In this document: positions 4,952-64,000 of the stretch, piece after piece | Layout: the number at the start of each line of letters is the position of its first letter | How positions within the stretch are numbered: position 1 is the first letter of the stretch | Source of the DNA: Theodoxus fluviatilis | Lineage: Eukaryota; Mollusca; Gastropoda; Cycloneritida; Neritidae | NCBI GenBank assembly: GCA_034096865.1 | Contig: JAWQFJ010028261.1 | Coordinates: forward strand, 1-64,000 | Reading direction: 5' to 3' | DNA length: 64,000 nt | Translations under genes and position numbers: made by a program | Notes under the pieces: model-generated | Told to the model about the DNA's origin: nothing | Database searches by the model: none | What the model saw: the letters and a program-made list of their open reading frames with translations, nothing else

Positions 4952-16017
<11,066 letters not shown>

Positions 16018-31965: not shown

Positions 31966-34588
31966 ATTTTTTTTTCCTACTGTTGTGAAAAGTTTTGAGC
32001 AGATGTATGTGTATACTCCCCTTTCTGAATAAAGATATTAAAAAAAAAAAAAAAAAAAAAAGACTAAAAACTGTTAATCTATTTTGGGAAATTTTATAGA
32101 AAATCATTCTAAGATAAAATTAATATAATTTTCAATTTACTGAAATAGTTTATCATAATAACTTTACTTGCCATTGTGACTCAAGGGCTACTGACAATGA
32201 TCACAAGATGTTGCATTCTTTTAACTGTACCTGCACTGAAACATCTATCACTTACATTTTGCACCAATATGAATCATTCATGCACATACAGATCCAGAAG
32301 GATTGCCTTGAGGTCCCATATAACTTCTATCCATAAATAGAACCCAGATTGGAATCAACTGTACTTACCTGAATATGCATGAAGAGGAGGCCGAAGGTTA
32401 GCAGGAAGGAGAGGTGCACCATGAACAGAAATAGCTTCCTGTTCTTGAATCCAAAATCCACTGCAGGTTCTGTTCTGTCCTCATCTTTTTTGCTAGGTAC
32501 GTCCTCACTGGCTTCCAATCCAAACCTCATACAGAACCCTTGGTTCTTGACAAAATAGTGCAAGCAAGCACTGAAAGCAAGGAGGGCTATAGGTGTGGCC
32601 AAAATGAAGTTAGGAATTTGCTTCCACTGGTAATATTTGAACAGACCCACGCTCCAGTGACTTTTCTGAACGTACTCATAAGACAAGGGCAGAGTGTCGC
32701 TACACCATGATGAGTATGGTGGACCCCACATCTTATAATTTTGTTCCTGACCATATCTAAAGATGAAATCAGGCATGGCAGAAGTGTCTCCAGGAAAGCA
32801 AAAGGTGGAATAGGCAAAATACTGAAACAAGCCAAAGGGGACCAAACACAATACTGTGCAAAGAAGTCCAGAACAGCCATAAAGGTAACAGTATGTAAAA
32901 AATATCACAAAGGTATCTTCTTTGCTTTGCATTTCAGTGAAACAAAGTGCATACAGTCTTTTCAGGAAGCCAACAATCTTCTTGTACCACAAGAAGCCAA
33001 GAGAGACAACTCCATTAGACCGCACTGCCCCACTCAGTCCCCAGTAGAAAGCAGCAGAGAAGCCCTCAGTGTTGACAAGACAGAGCCAGCCCTTCAGGCT
33101 GAAAAAGCAAAACATGGTCTCTGAGTAGGAGGATGACATGAAGACAGAGGCAGGGTTGATGCAGAAAAGCAGAGCTGCTTTGTAGGCCAGTTTCTCATCC
33201 TTCAGCACCCCACATCCCAGCTTGAACAGCAGGACTGCACTCTTCACAAACAGCCAGTTGTTCAGCAGCACAGCCATCAACAGCAGGATGTTTGCATAGC
33301 TCATGATGAACGATAAAGGCCAACCAAGAGTGCTGGCCAAGAACCGAACCACCAGAGGGAACATGGGGAAAAATGCCAAAGAATTTTCATAGGTGTAGCC
33401 ATGCTCAGCTATGTGTAGGAAATAAATGCCATCCCATCGCCTCAGGCCTCCAATCAGGAAGCTGACCACCTTGTCTGCAAACGATTCTGCTATATCTGGT
33501 GACTTTGGAGGGCTGAAGGCATCGGCATTGTGGTCTGGTATGACGGCATTCGCAACCATCTGCAACAAAACATTTGTTTTGGTGACACAACGAACTAATA
33601 AAACAAAGTTGTGTCCTTACATTTTTGTATGCTATACTATTAGACTTTGGAATGCCCTTCCATTCGACCATTGCAGCTTAGACATGCTCCATCAGTTTCA
33701 GCCTTCAAAAGTACATTTCCTCCATCTCAGATGACTCATTAATCTGTTGCATCAGAGAGCAGCAGTTCTGCTGATACCAGCGCTCTATAAGTGCCATACA
33801 TACATACATGCATCATTTGTCACGGTATTTTTCTGAGTCGATATCCCCCTGTAGGTTCGGGGCAAGAATTGACCCACCGCGTCTCCCTATGCGATTCCTA
33901 AGAGGCGAATAACTAGGGACACCGTGACTTGAATTGCGCTTACTCTAAAATGCTCTAGTGATTTTCGTGCTCAGTGGCCTTACATAGCCTTCAAAGGCTG
34001 ATAAATCGTAAAACACCATCCATCCATCCGAGTCGATAGTTAGGCTACATAGTATGCACTCAAGAAAATCTTATATTGATCATTATGGGCGACTGAAAAT
34101 AATTTGTCAACCGTGTTCAGTGTTCCTTTTCTCCACAAATGCGCATTGTCCGCCCCAATCACAGGAATTGACTTCTCCAATTACGAGAACGGACGGACAG
34201 ACAGTGTTTTAAGGCCCATCAGCCTTTGTAGGCTAGTAAGGGGCTAAGGGCAGTAAGGCCATTAACTGTTTAAGCACGAAAATCACTATAACAGTTTAAA
34301 GTAAACGTAAATCAAGTAACGGTGTCCCTAGTTATTCGCCTCTTACAAATCGCGTAGGGAGACGCGGTGGGTCAATTCTTACCCCGAACCCACAGGGGGG
34401 TCAGTTACGAAAAGCGACGAGAAAGGGATGCATCTGAAACAAGCTGCCTGAGCTTCCTTCAACCAAACTGATCCTGTTTACTGAACATAACTTTAACTAT
34501 TGCATATAATTCCCACCTGAATTGCAAAAACCGCAACTCTTGACAATAATGCAAAGTTTGCAATTTTATCAGATCCTGTAAGCAACAT
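24659..34588 (-). CDS. PIGV: GPI mannosyltransferase 2 (PIG-V), three exons
   Basis: Minus-strand exons: 34588-34517 (24 codons), 33559-32369 (397 codons) and 24961-24659 (100 codons plus stop), giving 521 aa against about 493 in human. Known role: ER membrane enzyme adding the second mannose to the GPI anchor from dolichol-phosphate-mannose. Sequence evidence: exon 1 gives a hydrophobic start ending SRVAVFAIQ; exon 2 starts MVANAVIPDHNADAFSPP and carries the family WD motif (GGLRRWDGIYFLHIAEHGY), INPASVFMSSSYSE and GAVRSNG; the last exon ends NFLPWT, as vertebrate PIGV does. Many hydrophobic stretches fit a polytopic protein. Donors read CAG|GTGGGA and CAG|GTAAGT; acceptors read TTGCAG and TTTCAG. 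Intron 2 hosts an antisense LINE. The exact N-terminus is uncertain (see findings). Confidence 0.95.
24987..25175 (+). mobile_element. Family B SINE-like element, copy 5
   Basis: Diverged copy starting CATGTGGGCTGGGGGTAAAA and ending with a CATTCGTTCATTC tail, in PIGV intron 2 close to the last exon. Confidence 0.7.
25459..25564 (+). repeat. (TG)n microsatellite followed by C-rich tract
   Basis: TG repeats with few interruptions, then CCCCCGCCCC-type sequence to about 25,605. The same arrangement recurs at about 25,935-26,040 in the duplicated LINE 5' segment. Confidence 0.9.
26955..31572 (+). pseudogene. LINE ORF2: endonuclease and reverse transcriptase, frameshifted and interrupted
   Basis: Starts MNIKIATFNVKGLGDFRKRR, with LLQEVH, GGDFNVILD and SDHSLVYF of an APE-type endonuclease. 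The RT follows with SPGSDGIPSEFYK, WRPITLLNVDYKI, DFKKAFDSVDHD, GTRQGCPLSPYIF and YADD at 29041-29052. A C-terminal CGFC...H-x4-C motif sits near 31,220-31,270. Breaks: a frame change near 28,085, another near 29,340, and the family A insertion at 29868. The sequence families resemble the L1/Tx1 group. Confidence 0.88.
29868..30757 (-). mobile_element. TCAAGGTCA-rich element (family A), copy 6, inserted in the LINE
   Basis: Inverted relative to the other copies: starts CAAGAAGGGCAAAGCCC and ends TTTTGCTTCGCATGTGAGTC. LINE coding continues on both sides (VPVKSK before, WADKGILQVKH after), with only A residues at the junction, so this is a clean insertion. Confidence 0.9.
31905..31962 (+). repeat. 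(TA)n tract in LINE 3' UTR
   Basis: About 50 bp of TA repeats, preceded by a (TTA)n stretch, just before the LINE polyadenylation signal. Confidence 0.9.
32369..33559 (-). CDS. PIGV: PIGV large middle exon
   Basis: This 397-codon exon carries most of the multi-spanning enzyme, including the WD motif in the first luminal loop and the conserved GVRSNG-like segment (here GAVRSNG). It ends FMHIQ and joins VLTRMLASS of the last exon in phase 0. No stop or frameshift is seen. Confidence 0.95.
33844..34029 (+). mobile_element. Family B SINE-like element, copy 6, with target-site duplication
   Basis: GAGTCGATA at 33835-33843 and 34030-34038 brackets it. It lies in PIGV intron 1. Confidence 0.85.
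34196..34400 (-). mobile_element. Family B SINE-like element, copy 7, inverted
   Basis: Reverse-oriented copy with the ACCCACAGGGG end at 34,400. Approximate duplication ATTACGA / GTTACGA flanks it. With copy 6 it forms an inverted pair in PIGV intron 1. Confidence 0.8.
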
Positions 34589-43568: not shown

Positions 43569-46500
43569 AGCAAGGTGCTTGAATGGCATTGCTTTTCCCT
43601 TAAATAAAGCCAGGCACTTGGTGTTTGTACCATGGCAGTTGGAACGGAAAGCCTCTACATCAGTTGAGCAAAACAACCATCTGTCATCATCATCGTCATA
43701 GTCATCATCGTCATCATCATTATCAGCATTGTCGTCAACGTCATCATCATCATCATCATCATCATCATCAATATCAATGGACTCTTTATTTTTGTATTCA
43801 GGTTTTTTCCCCTGCATGCGGGCCTTGCTGAATGGCCGTGTGCCGGCCTCCATCGACAAGTCTCCTGACCCTCCCACTCCCCTGGCTGGCTCCATCCTGG
43901 ACCTGATCATGGTGCCAGTCCAGTTTGCCACCTCCAGCCACAACAAGGCCATCAGGTGGGGCTGTAGAGGATGTGAAGGCTGAACATGTGATGTCCTGTA
44001 AGACCGTGACTAAATACTGTGTGAAGCCAGCTGCTGATTGGTTGTCTTTAAATAGGTGTGCGCTTCTGTTTTTCCTGAGTTCTTTTTGCCGATTGACTGT
44101 CGAAAGATTCAGCAACGTTCTATACGTGCACCATATGCAAGAAATTCTGTCTTCTGAACAAAATATCTTATGAAATGGGTGAGTTCACTGATAGCATTGG
44201 ATATCCATGCTTTTACTCATTGCCACATGAATGTTTCAAAAAGATTGAAACAATTGCATTGTGAAAAGGCTGACAATTTAGTGGGTGGGTATCATAGGCA
44301 ATGTGCAAGGATGCAATAGATTCTATGTGTGTGAATGAGTGTGATGTCTCATGTCCAATCAAAAGCCGGCTGCACCCAATATTTAGACACTTGTCCCATG
44401 CCTCTGTAGTTCACCCTAGCTGCCTTTCCCATGCCTCTCCTTACCTCCCAGCAAAGGTGTGGACTAGCTCTCCAAATTTCCTACTCAAACTCATTGTTTA
44501 TCAACATTTATAGGGAAGGACGGCAAGTCTGCCGCAAGACTGTCCCAGGACTGCTTAGTTTAGAAGAACGAGTCAGAGGAGGGAAGTGTCAAAGTGAGCA
44601 GCAGGGTCTAAGCTGACAGCAGACTGTAATGGTAGCAAGAGGCAGGGAAAGGTGGCATAGGGCATTATACATGTCTTCTATGATACAAGATACAAGATAC
44701 TTTATTGTCCTCATTGATCACAAGGAAATTCGTTTTGTCGGTGGCAAAAACATAATACATACATACAAAAACAAAAACAGTTCAACATTAATTAACTCAA
44801 TCATATCGCTCAAGTTATGGAGTCCATCAGAGGCAATTCAATTTAATAGAGAAACATTTTACACCAAAACAAGTAATCACAGAAGGAACAAAGACACAAG
44901 CATGCACATCAAACAATCATCGTCACGCAATAACACATACCCGATCTTCATCCATAACACATGTACAAGAACACCCCCCCCCCCCCCCCCCCCCATCATG
45001 TTCATCATCCTGCATGCACATCAACAACCACACTCGCACAGCACACATAACACATACACGATCATCAACGCATAACGCATGCACCCCCCCCCCCCCCCAC
45101 ACACACACACACACTCTCACATGTTAATCCTTGTTGTTACAGACATAGTTCACACCATTCATAGTCCTTTCTGTCACAGTTCACAGCACTACAAGTCCTC
45201 GTAGTCCCAGTTCACTTTACTCCAATCTCTCCGTCATATGTCACATCAATCCTGGTCACATAGTCACAACTCTCATCACTCATCCTCACAGTCACAGTTC
45301 ACATCACCCACTCTTCAGTCACAGTTCACGTCACTCCTGGTCCCACATTCACGTCAAGTCTCACAACAATCTTCATGCATACTACCCATTCACCGGGACT
45401 CGTTGAAGAGACGGATGGCTGTCGGGAGGAACGAATCCCTCATGCGGTTTGTTCTGGCAGGCCAGCACCTCAGGCGACGTGAGGATTCACGAGTGGGTTC
45501 GCATGACGCGAATGCCTGGTGCAGAGGGTGGCGGTCGTCAGATCGAATCTTGCCCATCTTCCTCAGGGCCACACTGGGGTAGCGATCACTGAGAGGCTGG
45601 AGGTCGGAGCCAGTGATGGCGCCGGCTTCATCCACGACCTTCTCCAGCCTCTCCATGTCGCCCTTCCTGACACTGCTGTGGTAACACAGCTGGTTGAAGG
45701 AGACGACGCTCTCAATCGTCGCCTGGTAGAAGAGGTGGAGAATCTCAGAGTTGACGCGAAACTGCCGCAGCTTTCTCAAGAAGAAAAGCCTCTGGTTCGC
45801 CCGCTTGCACACGGCGTCCACGTTCGGTGACCAATCGAGCTGGTTATCGATGATGGTGCCCAGGTATTTGTATGTATCAACCATCTCGACTGGTTCGCCC
45901 TTGATGACGATGGGATCGACCGTGGTCTTGTTGTCTCGTCGAAAGTCTATGATGAGCTCCTTGGTCTTGGTCACGTTTAGCTCCAGGAAGTTGTCGTCGC
46001 ACCACTTCACCAGTTCCTCCACGGCATTTCTGTACGCCGATTCGTCCTTCTTCAGGATGAGACCTGACAGGGATGTGTCATCTGCGAACTTCAGCAGCAG
46101 GTTCATGAGATCCCTGAGGCGACAGTCGGCGGTGTACAGCGTGAAGAGCGAGGGTGACAGCACGCAGCCTTGAGGGGCGCCTGTGTTAGTGGTGATGGCG
46201 TCAGACAGAACCTGTCCAACACGCACTCGCTGTGTTCGCTTCGTGAGGAAGCTGAAGACCCAGCTGATGAGGACTGGGTTGACGTCATACTCCAGCAGCT
46301 TCCTCATCATCAGATGAGGCTGGATGGTGTTGAAGGCGCTGCTGAAGTCAATGAAGAGGATCCTGGCGTACGAGGAGGGCTTCTCGAGATGGTCGGCTAC
46401 GTTATGAACGAGGGTCAGAATCGCATCTTCAGTACTCCGATTGCGGGAGTATGCAAACTGAAGAGGATCCTGGTGTTCCTCTGTCTCTGACCTCAACCTC

Positions 46501-49500
46501 CGAAGCACCAGCTTCTCAGCACACTTGAAGGGGATAGAGGTGAGTGCTATAGGCCTGTAGTCGTTCATCGTCGCTGGTGCACGCTTCTTGGGCACAGGGA
46601 CGATGGTCGAGCTCTTCCAGATTGTGGGGATGGAGTGTTCGTCAAGCGACCGCTGGAAGAGCTCGCGGTAAACAGGGGCGAGAGAGTCACCACATTCCCG
46701 TAGGAGCCTGCCTGTAATGTTGTCTGGGCCTGCCGCACTACGGGCTTTGACTTTCTTGAAGGTCTCCCGGACTTCGTCGATAGTGATGATCACAGGCGTG
46801 GAAGGACGGCTGAACACTTCCTCCATGACTTTCTTTTGTTCTTCGCTAAAGTCACGCTGGTCAAACCGAGCGTAGAAATTGTTCAGCTCTCCTGCCAGCC
46901 TCGCCTCATCTGTCGTCTTGAGAGGGACTTTCTTTGGCTTGTAGCCGGTGATTGTCTGGACGTCCTGCCAGTACTGCCTGGAGTTGCCCTCTTTGAAGTT
47001 GTTCTCCAGCTTGGTCGCAAAGCGGCGCTTGTCCTCTCTGATCTGCTTGTTGAGCTGCCTCTGGACTGCCTTCACCTCATCGCGGTCACCGCTCTTGAAC
47101 GCCTCTTTCTTCCTGTAGAGCAGCCTCTTCAAACCCGGGGTGACCCATGGCTTGGTGTTGGGGAAGACTGTGCAGGACTTGGTCTCAAGAACAGTTTCAG
47201 CGCAGAAGGTGATGTACGCCGAGGTGACGTCGGCAGTCGTGTCGAGGCTGGGGTCAGATAAGACACTCCAGTCGGTGGACTCAAAGCAGCCACGAAGAGC
47301 CTCTGACGAGTCGCTGGTCCACTTCTTCACCTTTCTCACGATAACAGTATGAATGCTTGGGAGATGCTTTGTATTGAAATATATGCAGGAAAACACTGCT
47401 CTCGCCATGTTGAAGAGAAGAGTTTGTTGATGCTTCCTCAAGAAAAGAAAACAAATTTCAGTAAAGTTTTTTTCCTGTTAGTATTTGCTCCCAAGACCAA
47501 TAAAATAGAAATGGGGGGGGGGGGCTTTATAATCTCATAGGTAGGAATTCAAGGTGCCTGTTTGCACTTTTGATTGAACTATGTACACTTGCTAGTGAAG
47601 GAGGAGTATTAGTCATGATTGCTTGCATTTTCATTGAAAAGACTTCTTTGACAGTATGATCTTGGTACCGTTTGTCAAACCTATGGAGGATTCCTTTTCG
47701 GTCCCTAAGAGATACAGTTTCTCTGCTTGGCTTTCTATGTATGTGTTCTCATCAAGATGTCTGACTGGACTTTGAATGATCACTTGTGTACTTAATTCCT
47801 AATGCCATCTGCCATTGAGGAGTGACCTCTACACGCATGTATCTGTTACCCATGACACTGACATCAACTGAAACTATCTGTTGCAGCCGTGAGGTCTTGT
47901 TTGCACTGACAAGAACGTTCCTGTGCCCAAGCTACACAGAGCAGGTGGGACAGTTCCTGGTGCCCGCCATGGCCTACGGGCGCTACCCGTTCCCCTTTGT
48001 GGAGCTGCTTCACATCCTGCTGGAGCACTCCCGCAGCGAGCAGCTCTACATGCCTGGCTTCCAGGGCATTTTCCTCTTCTCACCCTGGCTGCTGGCCGCC
48101 CTCATCACCCTGGCCTCCAAGCACCTTGGTAAGCAGTGCCTCTACACAGATCTGTTCACTTGATTGTTCAGTGAGAATGACAGAAGCAGTCCATTGGTGC
48201 CTCAACGCAGATATGTTCACTTGATTGTTCAGTGAGAATGACAGAAGCAGTACACTGGGGCCTCTACACAGATCTGTTCACTTGATTGTTCAGTGAGAAT
48301 GACAGAAGCACCCCATTGATGCCTCAATGCAGATTTTTGACTTGATTGTTCAGTGAGAATGACAGAAGCAGTCCATTGGTGCCTAAACGCAGATTTTAGA
48401 CTTGATTGTTCAGTGAGAATGTCTGAGCCATTTTCCCACAAAATTTAGTTGTTGACATTTACTGTCCTGTACTTCCATATTCTACCCCTTGCCTCTATTC
48501 CCATACCACCCCTTGCCTCTATTCCCATACCACCCCTAGCCTCCACTCCCACACCACTCCTAGCCACCAGCAGGAAGGCCAGCTTTTCTGTCATGTTTTC
48601 CTCTGCAAACTTGTTCTAAATTTAGCTGTCATGTGATCACCTTGTGGCAGATTTGCCTTGCACAGAGCAAATGATCACTAAATTTAGAAAATGAGTTTCA
48701 GGAGGACAATGGGATGGAGGGGCTTATCCTTTTGCTGGCAGCTCAGGGCAGTATGGGAATGACAATGTGGAGTGTAGTGGGGTAGCATGGAGCAGTATGG
48801 AAATGGCAACGTGGGGTGGAGTGGGTAGCATGGGACAGTATGGGAATGGCAATGTGGGGTGGAGTGGGTAGCATGGGACAGTATGGGAATGGCAATGTGG
48901 GGTGGAGTGGGTAGCATGGGGCAGTATGGGAATGGCAACATGGGGTGGAGTGGGGTAGCATGGGGCAGTATGGGAATGGCAATGTGGGGTGGAGTGGGGT
49001 AGCATGGGACAGTATGGGAATGGCAATGTGGGGTGGAGTGGGTAGCATGGGGCAGTATGGGAATGGCAACGTGGGGGGGAGTGGGGTAGCATGGGGCAGT
49101 AAGGGAATGGCAATGTGGGGTGGAGTGGGTAGCATGGGGCAGTATGGGAATGGCAATGTGGGGTGGAGTGGGTAGCATGGGGCAGTATGCGAATGGCAAT
49201 GTGGGGTGGAGTGGGGTAGCATGGGGCATTGTACATTGAGTCAACCATTACTTCTTTCTTTTGTGACATGATGGTAGATATTTTTGTGTGAACCAAAAGC
49301 TTTTTTCACTGTGCCGTTGTAGGTTACCAAACACTGGAGAGAGATATATATATCCAGATAAATCACTTATAGGCACATGTAGAGTGGCATTGTGGCATTT
49401 GTGTACTAGGATTAAGCTCCATTGTGTACAGCATCAGAATACATAGGTGTCTAAGATCTTATAATCCTTTCAAGTATTCTGCAGGTACTCATGAGATTTG

Positions 49501-52909: not shown

Positions 52910-54447
52910 TATGGGCTTCTGTGCAAACATAATTTTTGACTCACATGCGAAGCAAAAGTGAGTCTATGTACTCAGCCGTGTCGTCCGTCCGTCCGTCCGT
53001 CCGTCCGGGCGTCCGTCCGGGCGTAAAAAACTTAAACGTTGGATTTTTCTCGGAGACTATTAAGTCTATCAACACCAAATGTGGCATGATGGTGTATGAT
53101 GACAAGGCCTCAAAAAACATACATAGTGACTTGTCCTTGCTTCAAGGTTAAGGTCGCAGGGGCCATAAATGTGGTCTCAAAAACAGTCATTTTTCACATT
53201 TTCCCAATTTTCTCCCACGTTATTGAGAATGGCGGCCTTAGCTACAAGTGGTATATAGGTCAAAGCAAGCCCTATCTTTTGATACCAGTTTGGTTGACCT
53301 TGCTTCAAGGTCAAGGTCACAGGAGCTCTTCAAAGTTGGATTGTATACATATTTGGAAGTGACCTTGACCCTGAACTATGGAAGATAACTGTTTCAAACT
53401 TAATAATTATGTGGGGCACATGTTATACTTTCATCATGAGACACATTTGGTCACATATCATCAAGGTCAAGGTCACTTTGACCCTTATGAAATGTGACCA
53501 AAATGGGGTAGTGAACCACTAAAAGTGACTATATCTCATGGTAGAAAGTGCCAATAAGCACCATTGTGCTTCCTATGTCTTGAATTAACAGCTTTGTGTT
53601 GCATGACCTTGGATGACGTTGACCTTGGGTCAAGGTCACATGTATTTTGGTAGGAAAAATGTGTAAAGCATTTCTTTGTGTATGATGTCATTGGTAGGTT
53701 TAGTTGTTTGACCTTGACCTTGAAGGTCACCTGAAGGTCAAGGTCATATAAAGGTCAAGGTCAAGCATGTGAGTCGTATGGGCTTTGCCCTTCTTGTTTC
53801 ATGTGTGTATTGATGCATATCAGCATATTCTAACAATGCAGTGGGGTAATGAAGAAGTTGTTTGGCTCTGAATTCTTAAAATAAATTTGTTTGAATATTT
53901 TAAGCGCAATCTTTACTAAGATAACAGTCATTCCTTTTGTTTTCTCTTGCCACATAGTGTTGGAATCACCACTTGGTATAGATCTTTCAGTGCATTGTCT
54001 CTACTATCACGTTCATAAGCTGTGATTATCACCAGTTCACTAACACTACTTTACTATACTTGATACCCCTTACAGTACTTATAATATTTCAATTCATTGT
54101 TCATCTTTGACATTCATCAACAATGTTACAGCCATCGTTCAAGCAAGTCTGTCTATGGTCTCTCTGCAGCCTGCTGTGCAACCTGACCTTCCGACCACAG
54201 TTCCTGGCCTACCTGTGGCGGCACTGCCTGACCATCTCCATGGCAACAGTGACGGGCAGCAACACTCCTCTGGTGAACCTGCTGGCCCAGGGCATGCTGC
54301 CCATAGAGATGGTGGACCGCATCATCCCCCCACTGTCCGTCTTCTGCTCCCTCTTCAACCACATGCTGCTCACGGTGCATGATGCAGACTTCTACACACG
54401 TGAGCCAGGTATAGTTGGCTTGTGTTTTAAACACACGCACACATGAA

Positions 54448-54487
<40 letters not shown>

Positions 54488-57400
54488 TATGCACATGCAT
54501 ATTCATGTGTACAAATACATAGATGTGTATGCTGACAGTTCGATTATCATGTGAGCTGCTCAGTTCTCATCAGCAGGAATCCCTGGCTGCTGGGGTTCAG
54601 GGGTCGGCTCCAGTAGCTCAGCCAGGGTTAGCCTCAAGCAGCCAAAGTGACTACCAGTGGATATAGGGGTAGAGTCAGATTTAGATCCAGTTGTGTGCTC
54701 ACACTACCCTTGAAGATAAAACCCAACCCACACAGCAACCAATAGGATCCCAAATCCCATATCCAACCATATCACCACATGCATCTGCCAATAAACAGAA
54801 AAATCAACACCTAGCCTTCACTCACTGTTGCCTTTGTCCCTTTCACTCACTAATGTCTTTGTCCCTGTCACACACCATTCTGTTTGTCCCTGTCACACAC
54901 CGTTCTGTTTGTCCCTGTCACACACCATTCTGTTTGTCCCTGTCACACACCATTCTGTTTGTCCCTGTCACACACCATTGTCTTTGTCCCTGTCACACAC
55001 CATTGTCTTTGCCCTTTCACTCACTAATGTCTTTGTCCCTGTCACACACCATTCTGTTTGTCCCTGTCACACACCATTCTGTTTGTCCATCACTCACCGT
55101 TGTCTTTGTCCCTGTCACACATCATTGTCTTTGTCCCTGTCACACACCATTCTGTTTGTCCGTCACTCACCGTTGTCTTTGTCCCTGTCACACATTGTCT
55201 TTGTCCCTGTCACACACCATTCTGTTTGTCCCTGTCACACACCATTCTGTTTGTCCCTGTCACACACCATTCTGTTTGTCCGTCACTCACCATTGTCTTT
55301 GTCCCTGTCACACATCATTGTCTTTGTCCCTGTCACACACCATTCTGTTTGTCCCTGTCACTCACCATTCTGTTTGTCCCTGTCACTCACCGTTGTCTTT
55401 GCCCTTTCACTCACTAATGTCTTTGTCCCTGTCACACACCATTCTGTTTGTCCGTCACTCACCGTTGTCTTTGTCCCTGTCACACATCATTGTCTTTGTC
55501 CCTGTCACACACCATTCTGTTTGTCCGTCACTCACCGTTGTCTTTGTCCCTGTCACACATCATTGTCTTTGTCCCTGTCACACACCATTCTGTTTGTCCC
55601 TGTCACACACCATTCTGTTTGTCCCTGTCACACACCATTCTGTTTGTCCGTCACTCACCATTGTCTTTGTCCCTGTCACACATCATTGTCTTTGTCCCTG
55701 TCACACACCATTCTGTTTGTCCCTGTCACACACCATTCTGTTTGTCCCTGTCACACACCATTCTGTTTGTCCGTCACTCACCATTGTCTTTGTCCCTGTC
55801 ACACATCATTGTCTTTGTCCCTGTCACACACCATTCTGTTTGTCCCTGTCACACACCATTCTGTTTGTCCCTGTCACACACCATTCTGTTTGTCCGTCAC
55901 TCACCATTGTCTTTGTCCCTGTCACACATCATTGTCTTTGTCCCTGTCACACACCATTCTGTTTGTCCCTGTCACTCACCATTCTGTTTGTCCCTGTCAC
56001 TCACCGTTGTCTTTGCCCCTGTCACTCACCGTTGTCTTTGCCCCTGACACTCACCATTGTCTTTGATCCAGACACTCACTATTGTTGTCCCAGTAACTCA
56101 CCAACCACCATCTTTGTCCTTGTCACTCACCAGTCTTTGTCCCTGTCACTCACCATTGTCATTGTTCTTGTCACTAACCATTGCATTTGTCCCTGTCACT
56201 CACCTTTGCATTTGTCCCAGTCACTCACCATTGTCTTACCATTGTCTTTATTCCTGTCACTCACCAACAATTGTCTTTGTTTCTGTCACTCACCAACCAA
56301 TGTCTTTGTTCCTGTCCCTCACCATTGTCTTTGTCCTTGTCACTCACCAGTGTCTTTGTCCCTGTCACTCACCAGTGTCTTTGCCCCTGTCACTGACCAT
56401 TGTCTTTGTCCTTGTCACTCACCAGTGTCTTTGTCCCTGTCACTCACCAATCATTGTCACTGTCCCTGTCACTCACCAACCGTTGTCTTTGTCACTGTCA
56501 CTCACCAATCATTGTCACTGTCCCTGTCACTCACCAACCATTGTCTTTGTTCCTGTCCCTCACCAGTGTCTTTGTCCCTGTCACTCACCAATCATTGTCA
56601 CTGTCCCTGTCACTCACCAACCGTTGTCTTTGTCACTGTCACTGACCATTGTCTTTGTCCTTGTCACTCACCATTGTCTATGACCCTGTCACTCACCATT
56701 CTGTTTGTCTCTGTCACTCACCATTGTCTATGACCCTGTCACTCACCATTCTGTTTCTTTGTGCAGGGAAGTCCACCATGCCCTTCAGTCTGGAGGAGAT
56801 GGTGCAGATGTCGCAGGTGCTGCGTGACGTGGCGCTGGGGATTGTGGAGATCGCTCACCCTGACACCAAGCACCAGTCCAACCTGTACCAGGCTGCACTG
56901 AAAAAGATGCGAGGGAACACTGCAAGGCTGTCAGAGATGGATGATGAAACAGAGATCCAGATGTGGGCGTCTGCCTTCCAGGTATGTCTGCACTACCTGC
57001 AATGGTGTCATGGCTTGCCCAGGTGTCGCTCTACACCCACTCTCGCCAGGGCTGATGGGTGAGATATGTCTGCACTACCTGCAATGGTGTCATGGCTTGC
57101 CCAGGTGTCGCTCTACACCCACTCTCGCCAGGGCTGATGGGTGAGATATGTCTATAAGAATGTAGCATTCAGTTAACTGTCTTGTGGTTGAAAAGGTATC
57201 GGTGAAGAGAGTTGAAGGTGGCTCAGATTGTGTGTTTCTTTTCTCTATTAATTTGCTTTATGAACAACCAGTAGTTGTGCAAGAAAAATGCATTGATAAA
57301 AGAAGACGGTTAGCTTTTCATTCAGATATAAGCTTTCTTTCATTATGCTCCTCCTCCTGCTTCTCCTGCACCTCCTCCTCCTCCTGCTTCTCCTGCACCT

Positions 57401-59374
57401 CCTCTTCCTCCTGCTCCTGCTTCTCCTCCTCCTTCTCCTCCTCCTCCTCCTCCTCCTTCTGCTCCCTCCTCCTCCTCCCTCTGCTCCTCCTCCTCCTCCT
57501 CCCACTTCTTCTCCTCCTCCTCCTGCTCCTCCTCCTCCTCTGCACCTCCTCCTCCTCCCACTCCTTCTCCTCCTCCTCCTGCTCCTCCTCCTCTGCACCT
57601 CCTCCTCCTCCACCTCCTCCTCCTGCTTCTGCCCCCGCTCCTCCTCCCGCTCCTCCTCCCGCTCCTCCTTCTCCTCCTCCTCCTGCTCCTGCTTCTCCTT
57701 CTGCTCCTGCTCCTCCTTCTCCCGCTCTTGCTCCTCCTCCTCCTCCTCCTCCCCATTCCTCCTCCTGCTCCTGCTTCCCCTGCTCCTGCTCCTGCTCCTC
57801 CTCCTCCCGCTCTTGCTCCTCCTCCTCCTTCTCCTCCTCCCCCTCCTTCTCCTCCTCCTCCTTGGCCTCCTTCTCCTCCTCCTCCTGCTCCTCCTTCTCA
57901 ACCCTCCCACCCCCCACCCCCAGGGGATCTAACCAGTTGAGTAAGGATTCTTCTGGGTGTTTGTGACACATCTGAATAAAGCACTGATGTGGAGTGAAAG
58001 TCTTTTTCAAGATGATGAATCTGTCATCAGAGTTATTTTGTTCTGTTTCTCTTGACTAGAATGATGTGGAATCCTATGTTTGTTCATTGTTTTGATTCAC
58101 TATATCTGTTATGACCCCATCTAATTGACCAGGGTTCTCTGTGACTCACGATTCCATCCATGTTGTTGCAGCTGATAGTCAACTTGGTACGGCACCTCTA
58201 CAACCGAGACACACGGATTCCCTTCTGTCCCTCAGATCACTGGCTGGCACCACAGGTCCAGCTGAGGATAGACCAGGTAGGTTTGGGTGCTGCCTCCATG
58301 CTTTTCACTCTCTAGACCGCTGTGCTGAAGTCTTGGTGAAAAAAGGTGTAGGGCTTCAGGGAAAAATGACAAGACAAGTGTGATGGTGCATAAACCCATT
58401 ATTTGCAGATGGTGTTGGTCTTGTGATGTCTATCAACTTCTGTGTTTTGAGTCTGTGTCAGGTACTTTTGAGTTTGAATGAAATATTATATTATTTATTT
58501 TACCCTCTCAGTGTGTATTTCTTGTTAATTTTTTTTAACACTGAATGTTAAAAACAAAAGTAATATATTGATGTATGTGTTAACTTTTGGTGATTTATTG
58601 CCACTGTGTTCTGGTATGTTGAGTGGATTGTGCATATATGCTTGCGTATTGGTTGGTATGTGAGGGGTTATGTATGTGAGCCTCACGGTATATGCATATG
58701 TGTGTTTGTTTCTGTGTGTGTGTGCGTGCATGTATGTGTGCATATGTCTTGCCCCTGCTTTTAACTTTACACATCATCCATTTCAGATGAAAGGTCCTCA
58801 TTTTGACATGTTGATCTCATTGTGCATGAACCCTGTGATAGTGTGTGCCAATCCTTTTCAGTTTTCCTTTGCTTTTGTCTTGCAGTCCTCAGCTCTGTTC
58901 AAGGCTGACAATGGACTGTTCATCACAAGGCCCTTTGTGAACTTGAGAAACTATGTGAAAACCACTGTTGGTAAGTGCAGTGAGCTCTGACTTCCATGTC
59001 TGTCCAAACACTTGAATGGATGATGAATAGTCTGATGCTATTGAAACAATTCTTATGCATGAAAATGAAGATTCTTTTTCTTCAATGGTTTGTGCATTTA
59101 AAATTCTGAATATTTTTTTTCCATTCCCCAAGCTTTGATTGATCATGTGATGATATGATGTCTGCTCTCTGGAAAAGAAAATCATGACTTACTTTGCTGC
59201 TCATTGAGTTTAGATGTGTTTTCCAAGTTTTACTGTGCTACAGTAGCTGTTAATGTGTACACAATTTGAATGTCCACAGAGGAGGAGCGGCAACCCCTGG
59301 CAGTACGGGATGTGCGCAACCTGGTCATCCTGACAGAGCTGCCCTTCGTCATCCCCTTCCTTGAGAGAGTGCAG
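34913..59374 (+). CDS. UBE3C: Ubiquitin-protein ligase E3C, exons 1-15 (N-terminal 686 codons; HECT exons beyond window)
   Basis: Exons: 34913-34984, 36717-36770, 39147-39221, 40322-40465, 41894-41994, 42443-42603, 43802-43955, 47887-48128, 49522-49655, 52068-52249, 54170-54408, 56767-56981, 58172-58276, 58886-58970 and 59280-59374. They total 2058 bases, all phases match, and no stop interrupts. Known role: HECT E3 ligase associated with the proteasome that extends ubiquitin chains. Sequence evidence: start [16 protein letters not shown]; helix [18 protein letters not shown]; an IQ motif ([11 protein letters not shown]) near residue 54; then the conserved armadillo-like N-terminal region, for example [31 protein letters not shown] and [17 protein letters not shown]. 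The human protein is about 1083 aa, so roughly the last 400 residues, with the catalytic Cys, are outside the window. Exon 9 carries an acidic D/E-rich run. Confidence 0.95.
34985..36716 (+). other. UBE3C intron 1
   Basis: Holds a short (TG)n run at about 35,695-35,728 and a 42-bp array just before exon 2. The first kilobase shows no recognisable feature. Confidence 0.7.
35998..36690 (+). repeat. 42-bp minisatellite ending about 27 bp before UBE3C exon 2
   Basis: About 16 units of TATGACACAGTACAGCTACC plus ATCATGTCTGTTGCTGTGCTAG. The last unit turns from GCTGTGCTAG to GCTGTGCAG and is followed within 27 bp by the real acceptor TTCTTTGCAG. Confidence 0.92.
38217..38316. repeat. Perfect 34-bp inverted repeat with 32-bp loop
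   Basis: Arm 38217-38250 (GCATCCTTCCTGCCATTTCC...) is exactly complementary to 38283-38316. The AT-rich spacer contains TATATACATATATAT. It lies in UBE3C intron 2 and no similar copy was seen elsewhere in the window. Confidence 0.9.
38451..38779. mobile_element. Harbinger-like MITE, copy 3 (longer form)
   Basis: TTA at 38448-38450 and 38780-38782 flanks ends GGGCGCGTTTGTTTGGCC and GGCCAAACAAACACGCC. At 329 bp it is over twice the length of the copy at 6079 and may be closer to a progenitor. It lies in UBE3C intron 2. Confidence 0.75.
39147..39221 (+). CDS. UBE3C: UBE3C exon 3 with IQ motif
   Basis: This 25-codon exon reads [20 protein letters not shown] and then VRKAT. It contains the calmodulin-type IQ motif that lies near the N-terminus of UBE3C. 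The acceptor is TTTCACAG and the donor is ACG|GTAAGT. Confidence 0.92.
39222..40321 (+). other. UBE3C intron 3
   Basis: About 1.1 kb without recognisable repeats or genes. Confidence 0.5.
40481..41243 (+). repeat. 48-bp minisatellite starting just after the UBE3C exon 4 donor
   Basis: About 16 units of GGCTTTGCTTGTCTCTGGTA plus GTAAACCTGTAAGACTGTAGTGTGTTGT. The first unit begins about 15 bp after the donor at 40465. A length of 48 bp (16 codons) leaves long open frames on the minus strand. Confidence 0.92.
41268..41690 (+). repeat. TG-rich microsatellites with G homopolymer
   Basis: (TG)n blocks, a G run of about 19 at 41307-41325 and an (AG)n block near 41,583-41,607, in UBE3C intron 4. 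Confidence 0.9.
42090..42106 (+). repeat. G17 homopolymer
   Basis: A run of 17 G after (TG)n sequence in UBE3C intron 5. Confidence 0.95.
42263..42343 (+). repeat. 41-bp direct duplication
   Basis: AAATTGGACATCCATGTAAG plus ACATAATGTAATAATGAGC occurs twice in tandem in UBE3C intron 5. Confidence 0.9.
42837..42915 (+). repeat. (CT)n microsatellite
   Basis: CT repeat immediately left of a TIR element in UBE3C intron 6. Confidence 0.95.
42953..43410. mobile_element. Unclassified TIR element inserted between CT repeats
   Basis: The perfect 16-bp inverted end AAGGCTTGTTCAGGAG is at 42953-42968, with its complement at 43395-43410. Homology continues weakly inward through AGCGC. (CT)n lies on both sides. 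The interior repeats AGCGCTG several times. 458 bp, non-coding. Confidence 0.7.
43411..43566 (+). repeat. (CT)n / (CTGT)n microsatellite
   Basis: CT and CTGT repeats directly after the TIR element. Confidence 0.93.
43683..43776 (+). repeat. (CAT)n microsatellite
   Basis: CATCAT repeats with interruptions, about 25 bp before the UBE3C exon 7 acceptor. Confidence 0.9.
44681..47400 (-). mobile_element. Jockey-superfamily LINE (L2/Rex1-like), 5'-truncated, in UBE3C intron 7
   Basis: Minus-strand element. The 3' end lies at 44,681 with GACAATAAAGTATCTTGTAT followed by the short repeat CTTGTATC, the kind of end seen in CR1/L2/Rex1 elements. The 3' UTR holds C homopolymers (44974-44994, 45085-45098). 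Coding occupies 45390 to about 47,360. No endonuclease domain is present, so the 5' part is missing. The 5' boundary is approximate. Confidence 0.8.
45390..47441 (-). CDS. Uninterrupted reverse transcriptase frame of the LINE
   Basis: 683 codons without a stop. The first ~30 residues are probably flank; element sequence starts near [14 protein letters not shown] motifs in order: [71 protein letters not shown] (46077-46088) and [11 protein letters not shown]. The C-terminal region ends at RLFNESR. The frame is intact, unlike the L1-like copy at 26955, so this insertion may be younger. Expression is not implied. Confidence 0.85.
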   Translation of the reverse strand: MRKHQQTLLFNMARAVFSCIYFNTKHLPSIHTVIVRKVKKWTSDSSEALRGCFESTDWSVLSDPSLDTTADVTSAYITFCAETVLETKSCTVFPNTKPWVTPGLKRLLYRKKEAFKSGDRDEVKAVQRQLNKQIREDKRRFATKLENNFKEGNSRQYWQDVQTITGYKPKKVPLKTTDEARLAGELNNFYARFDQRDFSEEQKKVMEEVFSRPSTPVIITIDEVRETFKKVKARSAAGPDNITGRLLRECGDSLAPVYRELFQRSLDEHSIPTIWKSSTIVPVPKKRAPATMNDYRPIALTSIPFKCAEKLVLRRLRSETEEHQDPLQFAYSRNRSTEDAILTLVHNVADHLEKPSSYARILFIDFSSAFNTIQPHLMMRKLLEYDVNPVLISWVFSFLTKRTQRVRVGQVLSDAITTNTGAPQGCVLSPSLFTLYTADCRLRDLMNLLLKFADDTSLSGLILKKDESAYRNAVEELVKWCDDNFLELNVTKTKELIIDFRRDNKTTVDPIVIKGEPVEMVDTYKYLGTIIDNQLDWSPNVDAVCKRANQRLFFLRKLRQFRVNSEILHLFYQATIESVVSFNQLCYHSSVRKGDMERLEKVVDEAGAITGSDLQPLSDRYPSVALRKMGKIRSDDRHPLHQAFASCEPTRESSRRLRCWPARTNRMRDSFLPTAIRLFNESR
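48129..48425 (+). repeat. About 60-bp tandem array starting at the UBE3C exon 8 donor
   Basis: About five units with the core CACTTGATTGTTCAGTGAGA. The first begins four bases inside the intron (GTAAGCAGTGCCTCTACACA). Confidence 0.9.
48735..49225 (+). repeat. 43/44-bp minisatellite
   Basis: About 11 units of AGTATGGGAATGGCAATGTG plus GGGTGGAGTGGGGTAGCATGGGGC in UBE3C intron 8. Unit-length variation of one base switches reading frames. Confidence 0.92.
49522..49655 (+). CDS. UBE3C: UBE3C exon 9, acidic segment; acceptor chosen by reading frame
   Basis: The exon encodes [20 protein letters not shown], then LPAKQ, then a run of Asp and Glu. An upstream AG at 49483-49484 would join exon 8 out of frame and reach TGA within a few codons. 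The acceptor TACAACTTCAG at 49511-49521 restores the frame (KHL-DSLSPED) and matches the spacing of the human protein, so it was chosen. Confidence 0.8.
49778..51855 (+). repeat. 21/25-bp minisatellite, about 90 units
   Basis: The unit is GGCTCAGGCACAAAGCAGGGA, with or without an extra GGGA. Long and short units are interspersed across 2.1 kb of UBE3C intron 9. GGGAGGGAGG clusters could form G-quadruplexes. Confidence 0.95.
52397..52540. mobile_element. Harbinger-like MITE, copy 4 (decayed)
   Basis: Ends GAGCGTGTTTGTTAGGC and GCTTAACAAACTGCC, with interior GCTCATAAGCTGTAGGTGTG in the inverted order of the copy at 6079. It lies in UBE3C intron 10. Confidence 0.65.
52541..52937 (+). other. Intronic spacer with (TG)n
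   Basis: No gene seen. A (TG)n run lies at about 52,870-52,904. Confidence 0.6.
52938..53795 (+). mobile_element. TCAAGGTCA-rich element (family A), copy 5
   Basis: Well-conserved full copy in UBE3C intron 10 with a (GTCC)n-like tract after the start hairpin. It is closest to the copies at 992-1815 and 29868-30757 (shared CCCACGTTATTGAGAATGGC variant). Confidence 0.88.
54450..54485 (+). repeat. (AC)n microsatellite
   Basis: About 34 bp of AC repeats some 40 bp after the UBE3C exon 11 donor. Confidence 0.95.
54835..56757 (+). repeat. About 26-bp minisatellite running into the UBE3C exon 12 acceptor
   Basis: About 75 units of CATTCTGTTTGTCCCTGTCA plus CACAC and variants. The last unit merges into CATTCTGTTTCTTTGTGCAG, the acceptor of the exon at 56767. 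Units degrade toward the 3' end (more variants after about 56,000). Confidence 0.93.
56982..57145 (+). repeat. About 79-bp duplication starting at the UBE3C exon 12 donor
   Basis: TATGTCTGCACTACCTGCAA and the following ~60 bases occur twice in tandem. The first copy begins within the donor GTATGTCTGC. Confidence 0.9.
57345..57905 (+). repeat. (CTC)n-rich polypyrimidine tract
   Basis: About 560 bp of CTCCTCCTGC / CTCCTCCTCC units in UBE3C intron 12. Open frames on both strands here are composition artefacts. Confidence 0.95.
58277..58885 (+). other. UBE3C intron 13
   Basis: No repeat of note apart from a short TG-rich stretch near 58,695-58,745. Confidence 0.6.
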
Positions 59375-60735
59375 GTAGGAATGGAGAGAGTGTTCTAGAA
59401 ACTGTGCAGATAAAAATGAAGAGAGTTCCGGTAAGAATGGAGAGAATGTTCTAGAAACAATGTAGTTAATAATGAAGAGAGTGCAGGTAGGAATGGAGAG
59501 AGTGTTCTAGAAACTGTGCAGATAAAAATGAAGAGAGTGCAGGTAGGAATGGAAGTGTTCTAGAAACTGTGCAGATAAAAATAAAGAGAGTGCAGGTAGG
59601 AATGGAAGTGTTCTAGAAACAATGAAGATAAAAATGAAGAGAGTGCAGGTAGGAATGGAGAGAGTGTTCTAGAAACAATGAAGATAAAAATGAAGAGAGT
59701 TCCGGTAAGAATGGAGAGAATGTTCTAGAAACAATGTAGTTAATAATGAAGAGAGTGCAGGTAGGAATGGAGAGAGTGTTCTAGAAACTGTGCAGATAAA
59801 AATGAAGAGAGTGCAGGTAGGAATGGAGAGAATGTTCTAGAAACAATGTAGTTAATAATGAAGAGAGTGCAGGTAGGAATGGAGAGAGTGTTCTAGAAAC
59901 TGTGCAGATAAAAATGAAGAGAGTAGAGGTAGGAATGGAGAGAGTGTTCTAGAAACAATGTAGTTAATAATGAAGAGAGTGCAGGTAGGAATGGAGAGAG
60001 TGTTCTAGAAACTGTGCAGATAAAAATGAAGAGAGTGCAGGTAGGAATGGAGAGAATGTTCTAGAAACTGTGCAGATAAAAATGAAGAGAGTGCAGGTAG
60101 GAATGGAGAGAGTGTTCTAGAAACTGTGCAGATAAAAATGAAGAGAGTGCACGTAGGAATGGAAGTGTTCTAGAAACAATGAAGATAAAAATGAAGAGAG
60201 TGCAGGTAGGAATGGAGAGAGTGTTCTAGAAACAATGAAGATAAAAATGAAGAGAGTGCAGGTAGGAATGGAGAGAGTGTTCTAGAAACAATGAAGATAA
60301 AAATGAAGAGAGTGCAGGTAGGAATGGAGAGAGTGTTCTAGAAACAATGAAGATAAAAATGAAGAGAGTTCCGGTAAGAATGGAGAGAATGTTCTAGAAA
60401 CAATGTAGTTAATAATGAAGAGAGTGCAGGTAGGAATGGAGAGAGTGTTCTAGAAACTGTGTAGATAAAAATGAAGAGCGTGCAGGAAGAAATGGAGAGA
60501 GTGTTCTAGAAACTGTGTAGTTAATAATGAAGAGAGTGCAGGTAAGAATGGAGAGAATGTTCTAGAAACAATGTAGTTAATAATGAAGAGAGTGCAGGTA
60601 GGAATGGAGAGAGTGTTCTAGAAACTGTGTAGATAAAAATGAAGAGCGTGCAGGAAGAAATGGAGAAAGTGTTCTAGAAACAATGTAGTTAATAATGAAG
60701 AGAGTGCAGGTAGGAATGGAGAAAGTGAGAGTGAA
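59363..60735 (+). repeat. Roughly 56-bp tandem array containing copies of the exon 15 splice junction
   Basis: The unit reads GAGAGTGCAG|GTAGGAATGG, then AGAGAGTGTTCTAGAAAC and a GATAAAAATGAA or GTTAATAATGAA segment. The first unit overlaps the last 12 coding bases and the donor of UBE3C exon 15. About 24 units with variants. Confidence 0.93.
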
Positions 60736-60783
60736 GACAGGAAGGGGGAAAGCATTGTGGGGGATATGGTAGAATGAAGGAAA

Positions 60784-63700
60784 TGTAGTGAAGAGAGTGC
60801 AGGTACACCTGGAGGCATGCATGTGGAACTGTAGTGAAGGGAGTGCAGGTACACACTGAGGCATGCATGTGAAAATGTAGTGAAGAGAGTGCAGGTACAC
60901 CTGGAGGCATGCATGTGGAAATGTAGTGAAGAGAGTGCAGGTACACACTGAGGCATGCATGTGGAAATGTAGTGAAGAGAGTGCAGGTACACACTGAGGC
61001 ATGCATGTGGAAATGTAGTGAAGGGAGTGCAGGTACACACTGAGGCATGCATGTGGAAATGTAGTGAAGAGAGTGCAGGTACACACTGAGGCATGCGTGT
61101 GGAAATGTAGTGAAGAGAGTGCAGGAACACATGGAGGCATGCATGTGGAAATGTAGTGAAGAGAGTGCAGGTACACACTGAGGCATGCGTGTGGAAATGT
61201 AGTGAAGAGAGTGCAGGTGCACACGGAGGCATGCATGTGGAAATGTAGTGAAGAGAGTGCAGGTGCACACGGAGGCATGCATGTGGAAATGTAGTGAAGA
61301 GAGTGCAGGTGCACACGGAGGCATGCATGTGGAAATGTAGTGAAGAGAGTGCAGGTGCACACGGAGGCATGCATGTGGAAATGTAGTGAAGAGAGTGCAG
61401 GTGCACACTGAGGCATGCATGTGGAAATGTAGTGAAGGGAGTGCAGGTACACACTGAGGCATGCATGTGGAAATGTAGTGAAGAGAGTGCAGGTACACAT
61501 GGAGGCATGCATGTGGAAATGTAGTGAAGAGAGTGCAGGTACACACTGAGGCATGCATGTGGAAATGTAGTGAAGGGAGTGCAGGTACACACTGAGGCAT
61601 GCATGTGGAAATGTTGTGAAGAGAGTGCAGGTACACATGGAGGCATGCATGTGGAAATGTAGTGAAGAGAGTGCAGGAACACATGGAGGCATGCATGTGG
61701 AAATGTAGTGAAGAGAGTGCAGGTACACATGGAGGCATGCATGTGGAAATGTAGTGAAGAGAGTGCAGGAACACACTGAGGCATGCATGTGGAAATGTAG
61801 TGAAGAGAGTGCAGGTACACCTGGAGGCATGCATGTGGAAATGTAGTGAAGAGAGTGCAGGTACACACTGAGGCATGCATGTGGAAATGTAGTGAAGAGA
61901 GTGCAGGTACACACTGAGGCATGCATGTGAAAATGTAGTGAAGAGAGTGCAGGTACACATGGAGGCATGCATGTGGAAATGTAGTGAAGAGAGTGCAGGT
62001 ACACACTGAGGCATGCATGTGGAAATGTAGTGAAGAGAGTGCAGGTACACACTGAGGCATGCATGTGAAAATGTAGTGAAGAGAGTGCAGGTACACACTG
62101 AGGCATGCATGTGAAAATGTAGTGAAGAGAGTGCAGGTACACATGGAGGCATGCATGTGGAAATGTAGTGAAGGGAGTGCAGGTACACACTGAGGCATGC
62201 ATGTGGAAATGTAGTGAAGAGAGTGCAGGTACACACGGAGGCATGCATGTGGAAATGTAGTGAAGAGAGTGCAGGTACACACTGAGGCATGCATGTGGAA
62301 ATGTAGTGAAGGGAGTGCAGGTACACCTGGAGGCATGCATGTGGAAATGTAGTGAAGAGAGTGCAGGTACACACGGAGGCATGCATGTGGAAATGTAGTG
62401 AAGAGAGTGCAGGTACACACTGAGGCATGCATGTGAAAATGTAGTGAAGAGAGTGCAGGTACACCTGGAGGCATGCATGTGGAAATGTAGTGAAGAGAGT
62501 GCAGGTACACACTGAGGCATGCATGTGGAAATGTAGTGAAGAGAGTGCAGGTACACACTGAGGCATGCATGTGGAAATGTAGTGAAGGGAGTGCAGGTAC
62601 ACACTGAGGCATGCATGTGGAAATGTAGTGAAGAGAGTGCAGGTACACCTGGAGGCATGCATGTGGAAATGTAGTGAAGAGAGTGCAGGTACACATGGAG
62701 GCATGCATGTGGAAATGTAGTGAAGAGAGTGCAGGTACACATGGAGGCATGCATGTGGAAATGTAGTGAAGAGAGTGCAGGTACACACTGAGGCATGCAT
62801 GTGGAAATGTAGTGAAGAGAGTGCAGGAACACATGGAGGCATGCATGTGGAAATGTAGTGAAGGGAGTGCAGGTACACCTGGAGGCATGCATGTGGAAAT
62901 GTAGTGAAGGGAGTGCAGGTACACATGGAGGCATGCATGTGGAAATGTAGTGAAGAGAGTGCAGGTACACATGGAGGCATGCATGTGGAAATGTAGTGAA
63001 GAGAGTGCAGGTACACATGGAGGCATGCATGTGGAAATGTAGTGAAGAGAGTGCAGGTACACACTGAGGTATGCATGTGGAAATGTAGTGAAGAGAGTGC
63101 AGGAACACATGGAGGCATGCATGTGGAAATGTAGTGAAGAGAGTGCAGGTACACATGGAGGCATGCATGTGGAAATGTAGTGAAGAGAGTGCAGGTACAC
63201 ACTGAGGCATGCATGTGGAAATGTAGTGAAGAGAGTGCAGGTACACCTGGAGGCATGCATGTGGAAATGTAGTGAAGAGAGTGCAGGTACACCTGGAGGC
63301 ATGCATGTGGAAATGTAGTGAAGGGAGTGCAGGTACACATGGAGGCATGCATGTGGAAATGTAGTGAAGAGAGTGCAGGTACACATGGAGGCATGCATGT
63401 GGAAATGTAGTGAAGAGAGTGCAGGTACACATGGAGGCATGCATGTGGAAATGTAGTGAAGAGAGTGCAGGTACACACTGAGGCATGCATGTGGAAATGT
63501 AGTGAAGAGAGTGCAGGTACACATGGAGGCATGCATGTGGAAATGTAGTGAAGAGAGTGCAGGTACACATGGAGGCATGCATGTGGAAATGTAGTGAAGA
63601 GAGTGCAGGTACACACTGAGGCATGCATGTGGAAATGTAGTGAAGAGAGTGCAGGTACACACTGGAGGCATGCATGTGGAAATGTAGTGAAGAGAGTGCA

Positions 63701-64000
63701 GGTACACACTGAGGCATGCATGTGGAAATGTAGTGAAGAGAGTGCAGGTACACATGGAGGCATGCATGTGGAAATGTAGTGAAGAGAGTGCAGGTACACC
63801 TGGAGGCATGCATGTGGAAATGTAGTGAAGAGAGTGCAGGTACACACGGAGGCATGCATGTGGAAATGTAGTGAAGAGAGTGCAGGTACACACTGAGGCA
63901 TGCATGTGGAAATGTAGTGAAGAGAGTGCAGGTACACCTGGAGGCATGCATGTGGAAATGTAGTGAAGAGAGTGCAGGTACACCTGGAGGCATGCATGTG
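60784..64000 (+). repeat. 46-bp minisatellite, about 70 units, running off the window
   Basis: The unit is AGTGAAGAGAGTGCAGGTAC plus ACACTGAGGCATGCATGTGGAAATGT. Variants alternate CACACTGAGG, CACATGGAGG, CACCTGGAGG and CACACGGAGG. A length of 46 (1 mod 3) and the lack of stops on the minus strand open all three reverse frames for over 1,100 codons each. It shares GAAGAGAGTGCAGGTA with the preceding array. Confidence 0.95.

Follow-up and report, generated by a model that had tools for sequence, protein, structure and literature searches.

In the snail Theodoxus fluviatilis, the splice donor of exon 15 of UBE3C is the first unit of a long minisatellite, which runs to contig position 70,416 and holds 228 copies of the donor core, 221 of them with GT. 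Our analysis suggests that this minisatellite was born from the exon-intron junction itself and that it is probably tolerated because, under exon definition, the copy next to the exon is chosen. The stretch of DNA analysed, called the window below, comprises bases 1-64000 of contig C16362 (105,029 bp) from an assembly of 965,456,814 bases in 19,668 contigs. This contig carries PLK1 and a complete UBE3C, the latter with a single open frame across 23 exons up to the stop (1,073 residues) and with gastropod sequences as its best relatives. Exon 15, numbered so in the original prediction, is indeed the fifteenth of the 23 exons in one frame and ends at 59374, where the junction reads GAGAGTGCAG on the exon side and GTAGGAATGG on the intron side. 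Intron 14 before it measures 309 nt and intron 15 after it 11,968 nt, about nine tenths of the latter being array, and exon 16 starts at 71343. The downstream copies of the donor are termed decoys in the following, and the arrays are given as reported by Tandem Repeats Finder (TRF).

34913 to 59374, plus strand: UBE3C exons 1-15, by a one-frame reading across the exons.
59280 to 59374, plus strand: UBE3C exon 15 (95 nt), ending ...LERVQ in phase 0, by the one open frame through the exons.
59364 to 60727, plus strand: 56-bp array, TRF period 56 and 24.5 copies, with 25 cores; unit 1 comprises the end of exon 15 together with the true donor.
59375 to 59383, plus strand: true donor, intron side, GTAGGAATG.
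59396 to 59398, plus strand: TAG, the eighth codon beyond the true donor, inside every decoy-extended exon.
60532 to 60547, plus strand: strongest decoy, ...CAG/GTAAGA (CAGGTAAGA), 10.7 bits with the window matrix and above the true donor with both matrices.
60779 to 64000, plus strand: 46-bp array, TRF period 46 and 70 copies, mostly CAGGTACAC, running past the window edge.
71343 to 87118 of the same contig, beyond the window: UBE3C exons 16-23.

The array starts at 59364 and the exon ends at 59374, so the true donor lies within the array, and the exon 15 junction is its unit 1. Splitting at the core divides the 56-bp part into 25 units, namely 21 of 56 bases, three of 53 and a final one of 93 including a spacer; units 1, 3, 8, 10, 12 and 14 are letter-identical across 56 bases, unit 1 being the true junction. 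Seventeen of these cores read CAGGTAGGA (true donor included), three CCGGTAAGA, one each CAGGTAAGA, GAGGTAGGA and CACGTAGGA, and two have no GT. Moreover, a pattern search of the 965-Mb assembly finds the 20-mer GAGAGTGCAGGTAGGAATGG 17 times, always in the 56-bp array, with 0 occurrences on the reverse strand and 0 for the reversed pattern as control. The junction had been described as repeated with the same bases every 56 bp; this is true of 16 of the 24 downstream copies, which equal the true junction over 20 bases, while the remaining eight differ.

The second array has 70 cores up to the window edge (60 CAGGTACAC, five CAGGTGCAC and five without GT), and its 46-bp unit retains the GAAGAGAGTGCAGGTA core. 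The window thus holds 95 cores (25 + 70) with GT intact in 88, in good agreement with an earlier estimate of about 90 donor-like sites. It had also been claimed that GTAC is kept through the window edge, and in fact the 46-bp array does pass the edge, but GTAC is found in only 60 of the 70 cores; likewise the extent of 4.6 kb describes the array up to the window edge, while the array itself is larger. In the whole array AGGT is present in 217 of the 228 cores (190 CAGGTACAC, 17 CAGGTAGGA, eight CAGGTGCAC, one CAGGTAAGA and one GAGGTAGGA), and the other 11 comprise three with CCGGT, one with CACGT and seven without GT. The core pattern has no further plus-strand occurrence on the contig outside the array.

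The strength of the copies was scored with a donor matrix from the window, made of the 22 other donors for the true donor and containing the genuine donors when these were scored, and again with human donor frequencies. With the window matrix the true donor reaches 9.8 bits, as do 18 sites of the first array including itself and none of the second; with the human frequencies 21 first-array sites score at least as high as the true donor, which is counted among them. Donors of the second array have 4.4 or 3.5 bits, less than any of the 23 genuine donors (minimum 5.0 when these contribute to the matrix), and 4.3-4.4 by the human frequencies, similar to the weakest genuine donors (4.0-4.8). Because of these scores we regard the first array as one of true look-alikes and the second as one of weak ones. 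Judged by sequence score, the downstream units of the 56-bp array include 16 competent donors identical to the true one and one stronger, and splice-site strength so measured cannot separate the true donor from the 16 copies. The suggestion that U1 pairing would be blind to the copies accordingly applies to these 17 and fails for the donors of the 46-bp array, which lie below all the genuine ones.

As for the origin of the array, the exonic bases of the unit belong to conserved coding sequence. Arg and the last Lys at the end of exon 15 do not vary among eight aligned relatives (R712 and K714 in the numbering of the first sequence), and 22 of 33 relatives read (E/D)-R-(V/F)-(K/R/Q) at the exon end by pattern, the 11 without a match being left out; the pattern required R and restricted the last residue, and only E/D and V/F are independent. 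The exon end therefore predates the array, and the array most likely grew from the exon 15 junction and not the reverse, as the original prediction had proposed on the sequence. We suppose that the minisatellite started when sequence spanning the border of exon 15 and intron 15 was duplicated in tandem, and a duplication spanning the junction would be the reason why each unit carries the last ten exon bases together with the donor. The 56-bp unit contains imperfect 21-bp subrepeats, and GAGAGAGTG, which flanks the donor on both sides, could have seeded the initial duplication. Growth would then have proceeded by unequal exchange or slippage, with the 56-bp array coming first and the 46-bp unit, presumably derived from it, expanding later to about 200 copies.

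How the decoys would stay silent is probably a matter of exon definition. With long flanking introns, the exon 15 acceptor would pair with the nearest donor, and the identical copies downstream would be mostly silent. Five published minigenes that combined two identical strong donors with introns of 365 nt spliced exclusively at the upstream site; among human transcripts whose donors are nearly equal, about 60% favour the upstream donor, a bias that is greater when introns are long (PMC9225289). Identical donors and long introns thus favour the upstream donor in minigenes, and therefore the decoys may rarely be used. Considering this result and the intron lengths of 309 and 11,968 nt, the exon-facing copy would be expected to win at exon 15 and, by the same rule mirrored, at the arrays of acceptors described below, which precede UBE3C exon 21 and occur in PLK1. 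An occasional use of a decoy would lead to a stop codon and probably to decay of the message; in fact TAG is met at the eighth codon past the donor, within the eight codons earlier claimed, and the reading frame backs the truncated product predicted from it. The leakage to decoys is likely small but real.

Several observations make this account less secure. The upstream preference in human transcripts amounts to no more than about 60% overall, and when donors are not filtered by strength the balance is reversed, about 60% going to the downstream site (PMC9225289), while human ABCA7, whose minisatellite is compared below, at times retains one repeat unit (PMC5954066). Homology between the 46-bp and the 56-bp units is weak outside the core (P 0.038). 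Moreover, RNA structure was considered as a means of hiding the decoys and rejected: the true donor has a predicted local accessibility of 0.0055, and each of the 24 other copies of the 56-bp array is predicted to be more accessible (0.007-0.53), so that structure does not favour the true donor; five computed copies of the 46-bp array are more paired (predicted accessibility at most 0.0006). All considered, a junction-born minisatellite, tolerated as exon definition picks the exon-facing copy, is still the explanation we think probable.

The donor array has a mirrored counterpart in the same gene, and further arrays are found at junctions of UBE3C, PLK1 and another HECT gene.

82284 to 85076 of contig C16362, beyond the window: 36 units of 78 bp in tandem, spanning the acceptor of UBE3C exon 21.
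6 bp before UBE3C exon 18, beyond the window: 41-bp array.
56983 to 57153, plus strand: 82-bp repeat of 2.1 copies, beginning 1 bp after the exon 12 donor, its copies having AT where the donor has GT.
54828 to 56756, plus strand: 25-bp array that stops 10 bp short of exon 12; the last unit is part of the acceptor tract, the others have no good acceptor.
48136 to 48421, plus strand: 61-bp array with its start 7 bp downstream of the exon 8 donor, which is not itself copied.
12157 to 12505 (12429 by TRF), plus strand: PLK1 63-bp array, unit acceptors of 7.2-12.4 bits, with homology that extends into the genuine acceptor for the exon at 12506.
12714 to 13615 (13612 by TRF), plus strand: PLK1 39-bp array, the last unit holding the acceptor of the exon at 13616, its edge 3 bp before the acceptor.
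699 to 1519 of locus L042, contig C15281, other HECT gene: 20-bp unit, 41 copies, each unit acceptor-like.
853 to 1534 of locus L049, contig C15281, other HECT gene: 78-bp unit, 8.8 copies, acceptor and about 19 exon bases.

Each unit of the exon 21 array consists of the acceptor and the first 45 coding bases, so that 36 copies including the true one, i.e. 35 extra, precede exon 21. Fifteen of the 36 (true included) are identical over 75 nt, and 34 of the 36 readings meet a stop; of the two that stay open, one is that of the true site. In PLK1, the true acceptor behind the 63-bp array has 16.4 bits in the same scoring, in which the genuine median is 7.2, and the array ends by TRF 76 bp before it. 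The 39-bp and the 25-bp units are poor acceptors, with maxima of 2.7 and 4.8 bits versus 8.6 and 15.3 for the true sites. Also in PLK1, the acceptor of the exon at 14322 has a diverged second copy (14157-14193 versus 14296-14332) that scores 13.3 bits against 10.1 for the true one, and a 42-bp array at 9619-11673 in an intron, far from junctions, has 48.9 copies with 99% matches and lies, with flank, within an open frame of 825 codons.

The placement of such arrays was compared with chance for minisatellites of TRF period at least 20 and score at least 150, merged, of which there are 19 in the 30 introns of PLK1 and UBE3C. Seven of the 19 have an edge within 10 bp of a junction or lie across one, versus a mean of 0.68 when slid randomly in their own introns, and none of 100,000 trials reaches 7. 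Without the exon 15 array the figure is six of 18 (4 of 100,000 random trials), and for the sequence beyond 64 kb only, fetched after the idea was formed, two of six (571 of 100,000). In addition, nine of 60 junctions have own-intron copies exceeding all 200 dinucleotide shuffles. Among 30 HECT loci, obtained from 50 exon matches in the genome with splice sites chosen by score, 46 of 60 possible junctions were testable and four were positive, namely UBE3C exon 21, a weak one in locus L032 (17 versus 14) and the two clear acceptor arrays of the one other gene; without the three UBE3C loci there are three of 41. On these grounds we put forward, only as a tentative idea that is more doubtful than the origin of the exon 15 array, that junctions are preferred birthplaces of minisatellites in this genome. 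A process linked to transcription or splicing would duplicate the exon edge with its splice site, on the donor as well as the acceptor side, while exon definition would hide the damage and housekeeping genes would fill with hundreds of decoys, some of them perfect.

A considerable part of the data speaks against so general a preference. By coverage junctions are not favoured, since in the window six of 45 outscore every one of 200 shuffles and a further one stands at 1 of 200, and 76 of 200 random intron windows, or 26 of 149 outside TRF arrays, exceed 100 shuffles. Several of the seven junction arrays touch by the edge only, the splice signal not being copied intact. Besides, among the 38 junctions of 19 short stop-free kinase matches (the top of a list of 137, with 450 bp on either side, a further fitting match on contig C1987 not being included), there is one marginal case (15 versus 14 in shuffles) and no array by TRF. 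Placement and coverage thus point in opposite ways. We have weighed placement above coverage because array growth in place inflates the coverage of intron interiors, a weighting which is our own choice. With arrays at junctions of three genes and none at the kinase junctions, the phenomenon is therefore recurrent but not everywhere.

The same data bear on a simple coincidence, that is, that the introns are so rich in minisatellites that some arrays touch exons. In fact minisatellites occupy 26,321 of 58,784 intron bases in PLK1 and UBE3C (45%), compared with 1,477 of 41,786 contig bases outside both gene spans (3.5%) and, at eight arbitrary contig starts, a small sample, 7,266 of 37,500, mostly from one satellite contig. 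Such a coincidence would suit the more frequent repetition of random intron windows than of junction windows and the kinase exons without a junction array, and the placement test was conceived after the first cases were known. It accords poorly with the seven edges where 0.68 are expected, with the two of six in the part fetched later, and with a splice site lying within the repeated unit at UBE3C exons 15 and 21, in the PLK1 63-bp array and at two exons of another HECT gene; we therefore consider it unlikely, although it survives best among the alternatives.

It might also be that the array is functional, with decoys reducing the output of UBE3C by way of poison extensions to exon 15, or with a platform of U1 binding that shields the long intron from early polyadenylation. 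The persistence of 221 GT cores, the 17 decoys at least as strong as the true donor with the window matrix and the TAG reached by every decoy use would fit such a role, and the length of the ABCA7 repeat can alter splicing of its host gene (PMC5954066). However, 190 of the 228 copies are of the weak CAGGTACAC form, and arrays at other junctions resemble one mutational process. In the 68 full 46-bp units of the window two of nine donor positions vary versus nine of 37 others, which shows, with no formal test, no extra conservation of the donor and no visible selection for or against decoys. A functional array seems to us improbable. An assembly artefact or a strongly inflated copy number is less probable again: long arrays are hard to assemble and a gap of 29 N lies at contig 70296-70324 among the last units of the 46-bp array, but the copies bear many distinct variants in mixed order, and arrays of the same kind occur at several loci.

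The least probable alternative, very unlikely in our judgement, is that the AGGT units are dual-specific and the array is spliced stepwise in whole units by recursive splicing, as with the repeats of UBC: AG/GT in 217 of 228 cores would let splicing between like units restore the same junction and dual-specific sites in tandem repeats are known (PMC10809524), but of the 89 window cores scored as acceptors none exceeds 3.1 bits and the mean is 0.2, whereas genuine acceptors have a median of 7.2 (range -1.2 to 14.2, each left out in turn), and these low scores led us to judge it unlikely. Two genuine acceptors are below 1 bit, and therefore the score alone is not decisive; yet the cores have on average 3.9 pyrimidines in 16 versus at least eight in each of 23 genuine acceptors, and intron 15 ends 926 bp beyond the array, outside the repeat, where a UBC-type intron would end within it and measure a whole number of units.

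The kind of object described here is known. In intron 18 of human ABCA7 there is a variable number tandem repeat (VNTR), a 25-bp minisatellite which starts with the GT of the exon 18 donor and has 23.7 copies in the reference (PMC5954066). Like it, the snail array includes the true donor of its exon; one ABCA7 unit can be retained through the next donor, with a frame shift and a stop, and the snail decoys are predicted to add a stop. While the first two repeat bases are the donor GT in ABCA7, the snail unit also holds the last ten exon bases, the snail array has 228 copies in one assembly, and snail UBE3C has the mirrored acceptor array in addition. For ABCA7 both function and polymorphism have been tested, whereas the snail array is known from the sequence of one assembly. 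The minisatellite of IFI6 (G1P3, 6-16; Turri et al. 1995, through the citing papers PMC4526556, PMC2572611 and PMC2915984) provides several splice donors in one transcript, and there downstream units are used and yield isoforms, whereas use of a snail decoy is predicted to end the frame. As in the polyubiquitin gene UBC, the tandem units hold AGGT, but the units of UBC lie in coding sequence and serve in both roles, as donor and as acceptor, while the snail CAG has no pyrimidine tract (PMC10809524). In human segmental duplications, minisatellites at exon-intron boundaries alter splicing (PMC2812944); those repeats vary between paralogues and can create introns, whereas the snail host is UBE3C. 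Within a partial coverage of the literature on gastropod junction minisatellites and on arrays with donors or acceptors, no report of donor and acceptor arrays in one gene was found. What appears new is thus the exon bases in the unit, a copy number far above the ABCA7 reference allele and the mirrored acceptor array in the same gene.

Elsewhere in the window, the encoded PLK1 comes nearest, among named sequences in the best 120 of 3,573 matches, to that of caenogastropods (Babylonia areolata 78%, Littorina saxatilis 77%, Nucella lapillus 76% and Pomacea canaliculata 74%), and a scan with Rfam at the gathering threshold gives 0 matches. Open frames at 26943-31572 (plus strand) and 45390-47477 (minus strand), the second within UBE3C intron 7, resemble what we take to be the endonuclease/reverse transcriptase of a retrotransposon without long terminal repeats (non-LTR), and a frame of 429 codons at 32327-33616 (minus strand) presumably resembles the mannosyltransferase PIGV. 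A dispersed repeat is found on both strands at 6338-6610, 21806-22093, 30461-30733 and 52933-53151, with a common 12-letter peptide.

The disregard of perfect decoys by the spliceosome is usually studied in minigenes with two identical sites. Here one exon is followed by 16 perfect donor copies and about 200 weaker ones, a natural test of the choice between identical splice sites, and the same gene offers 35 acceptor copies before another exon, while the stop added by the decoy donors makes a clear read-out. If array edges favour junctions genome-wide, this would suggest that mutations arise by a process associated with transcription or splicing, and such a process, if true, could feed the evolution of new splice sites, of introns and of disease-type VNTRs like that of ABCA7.

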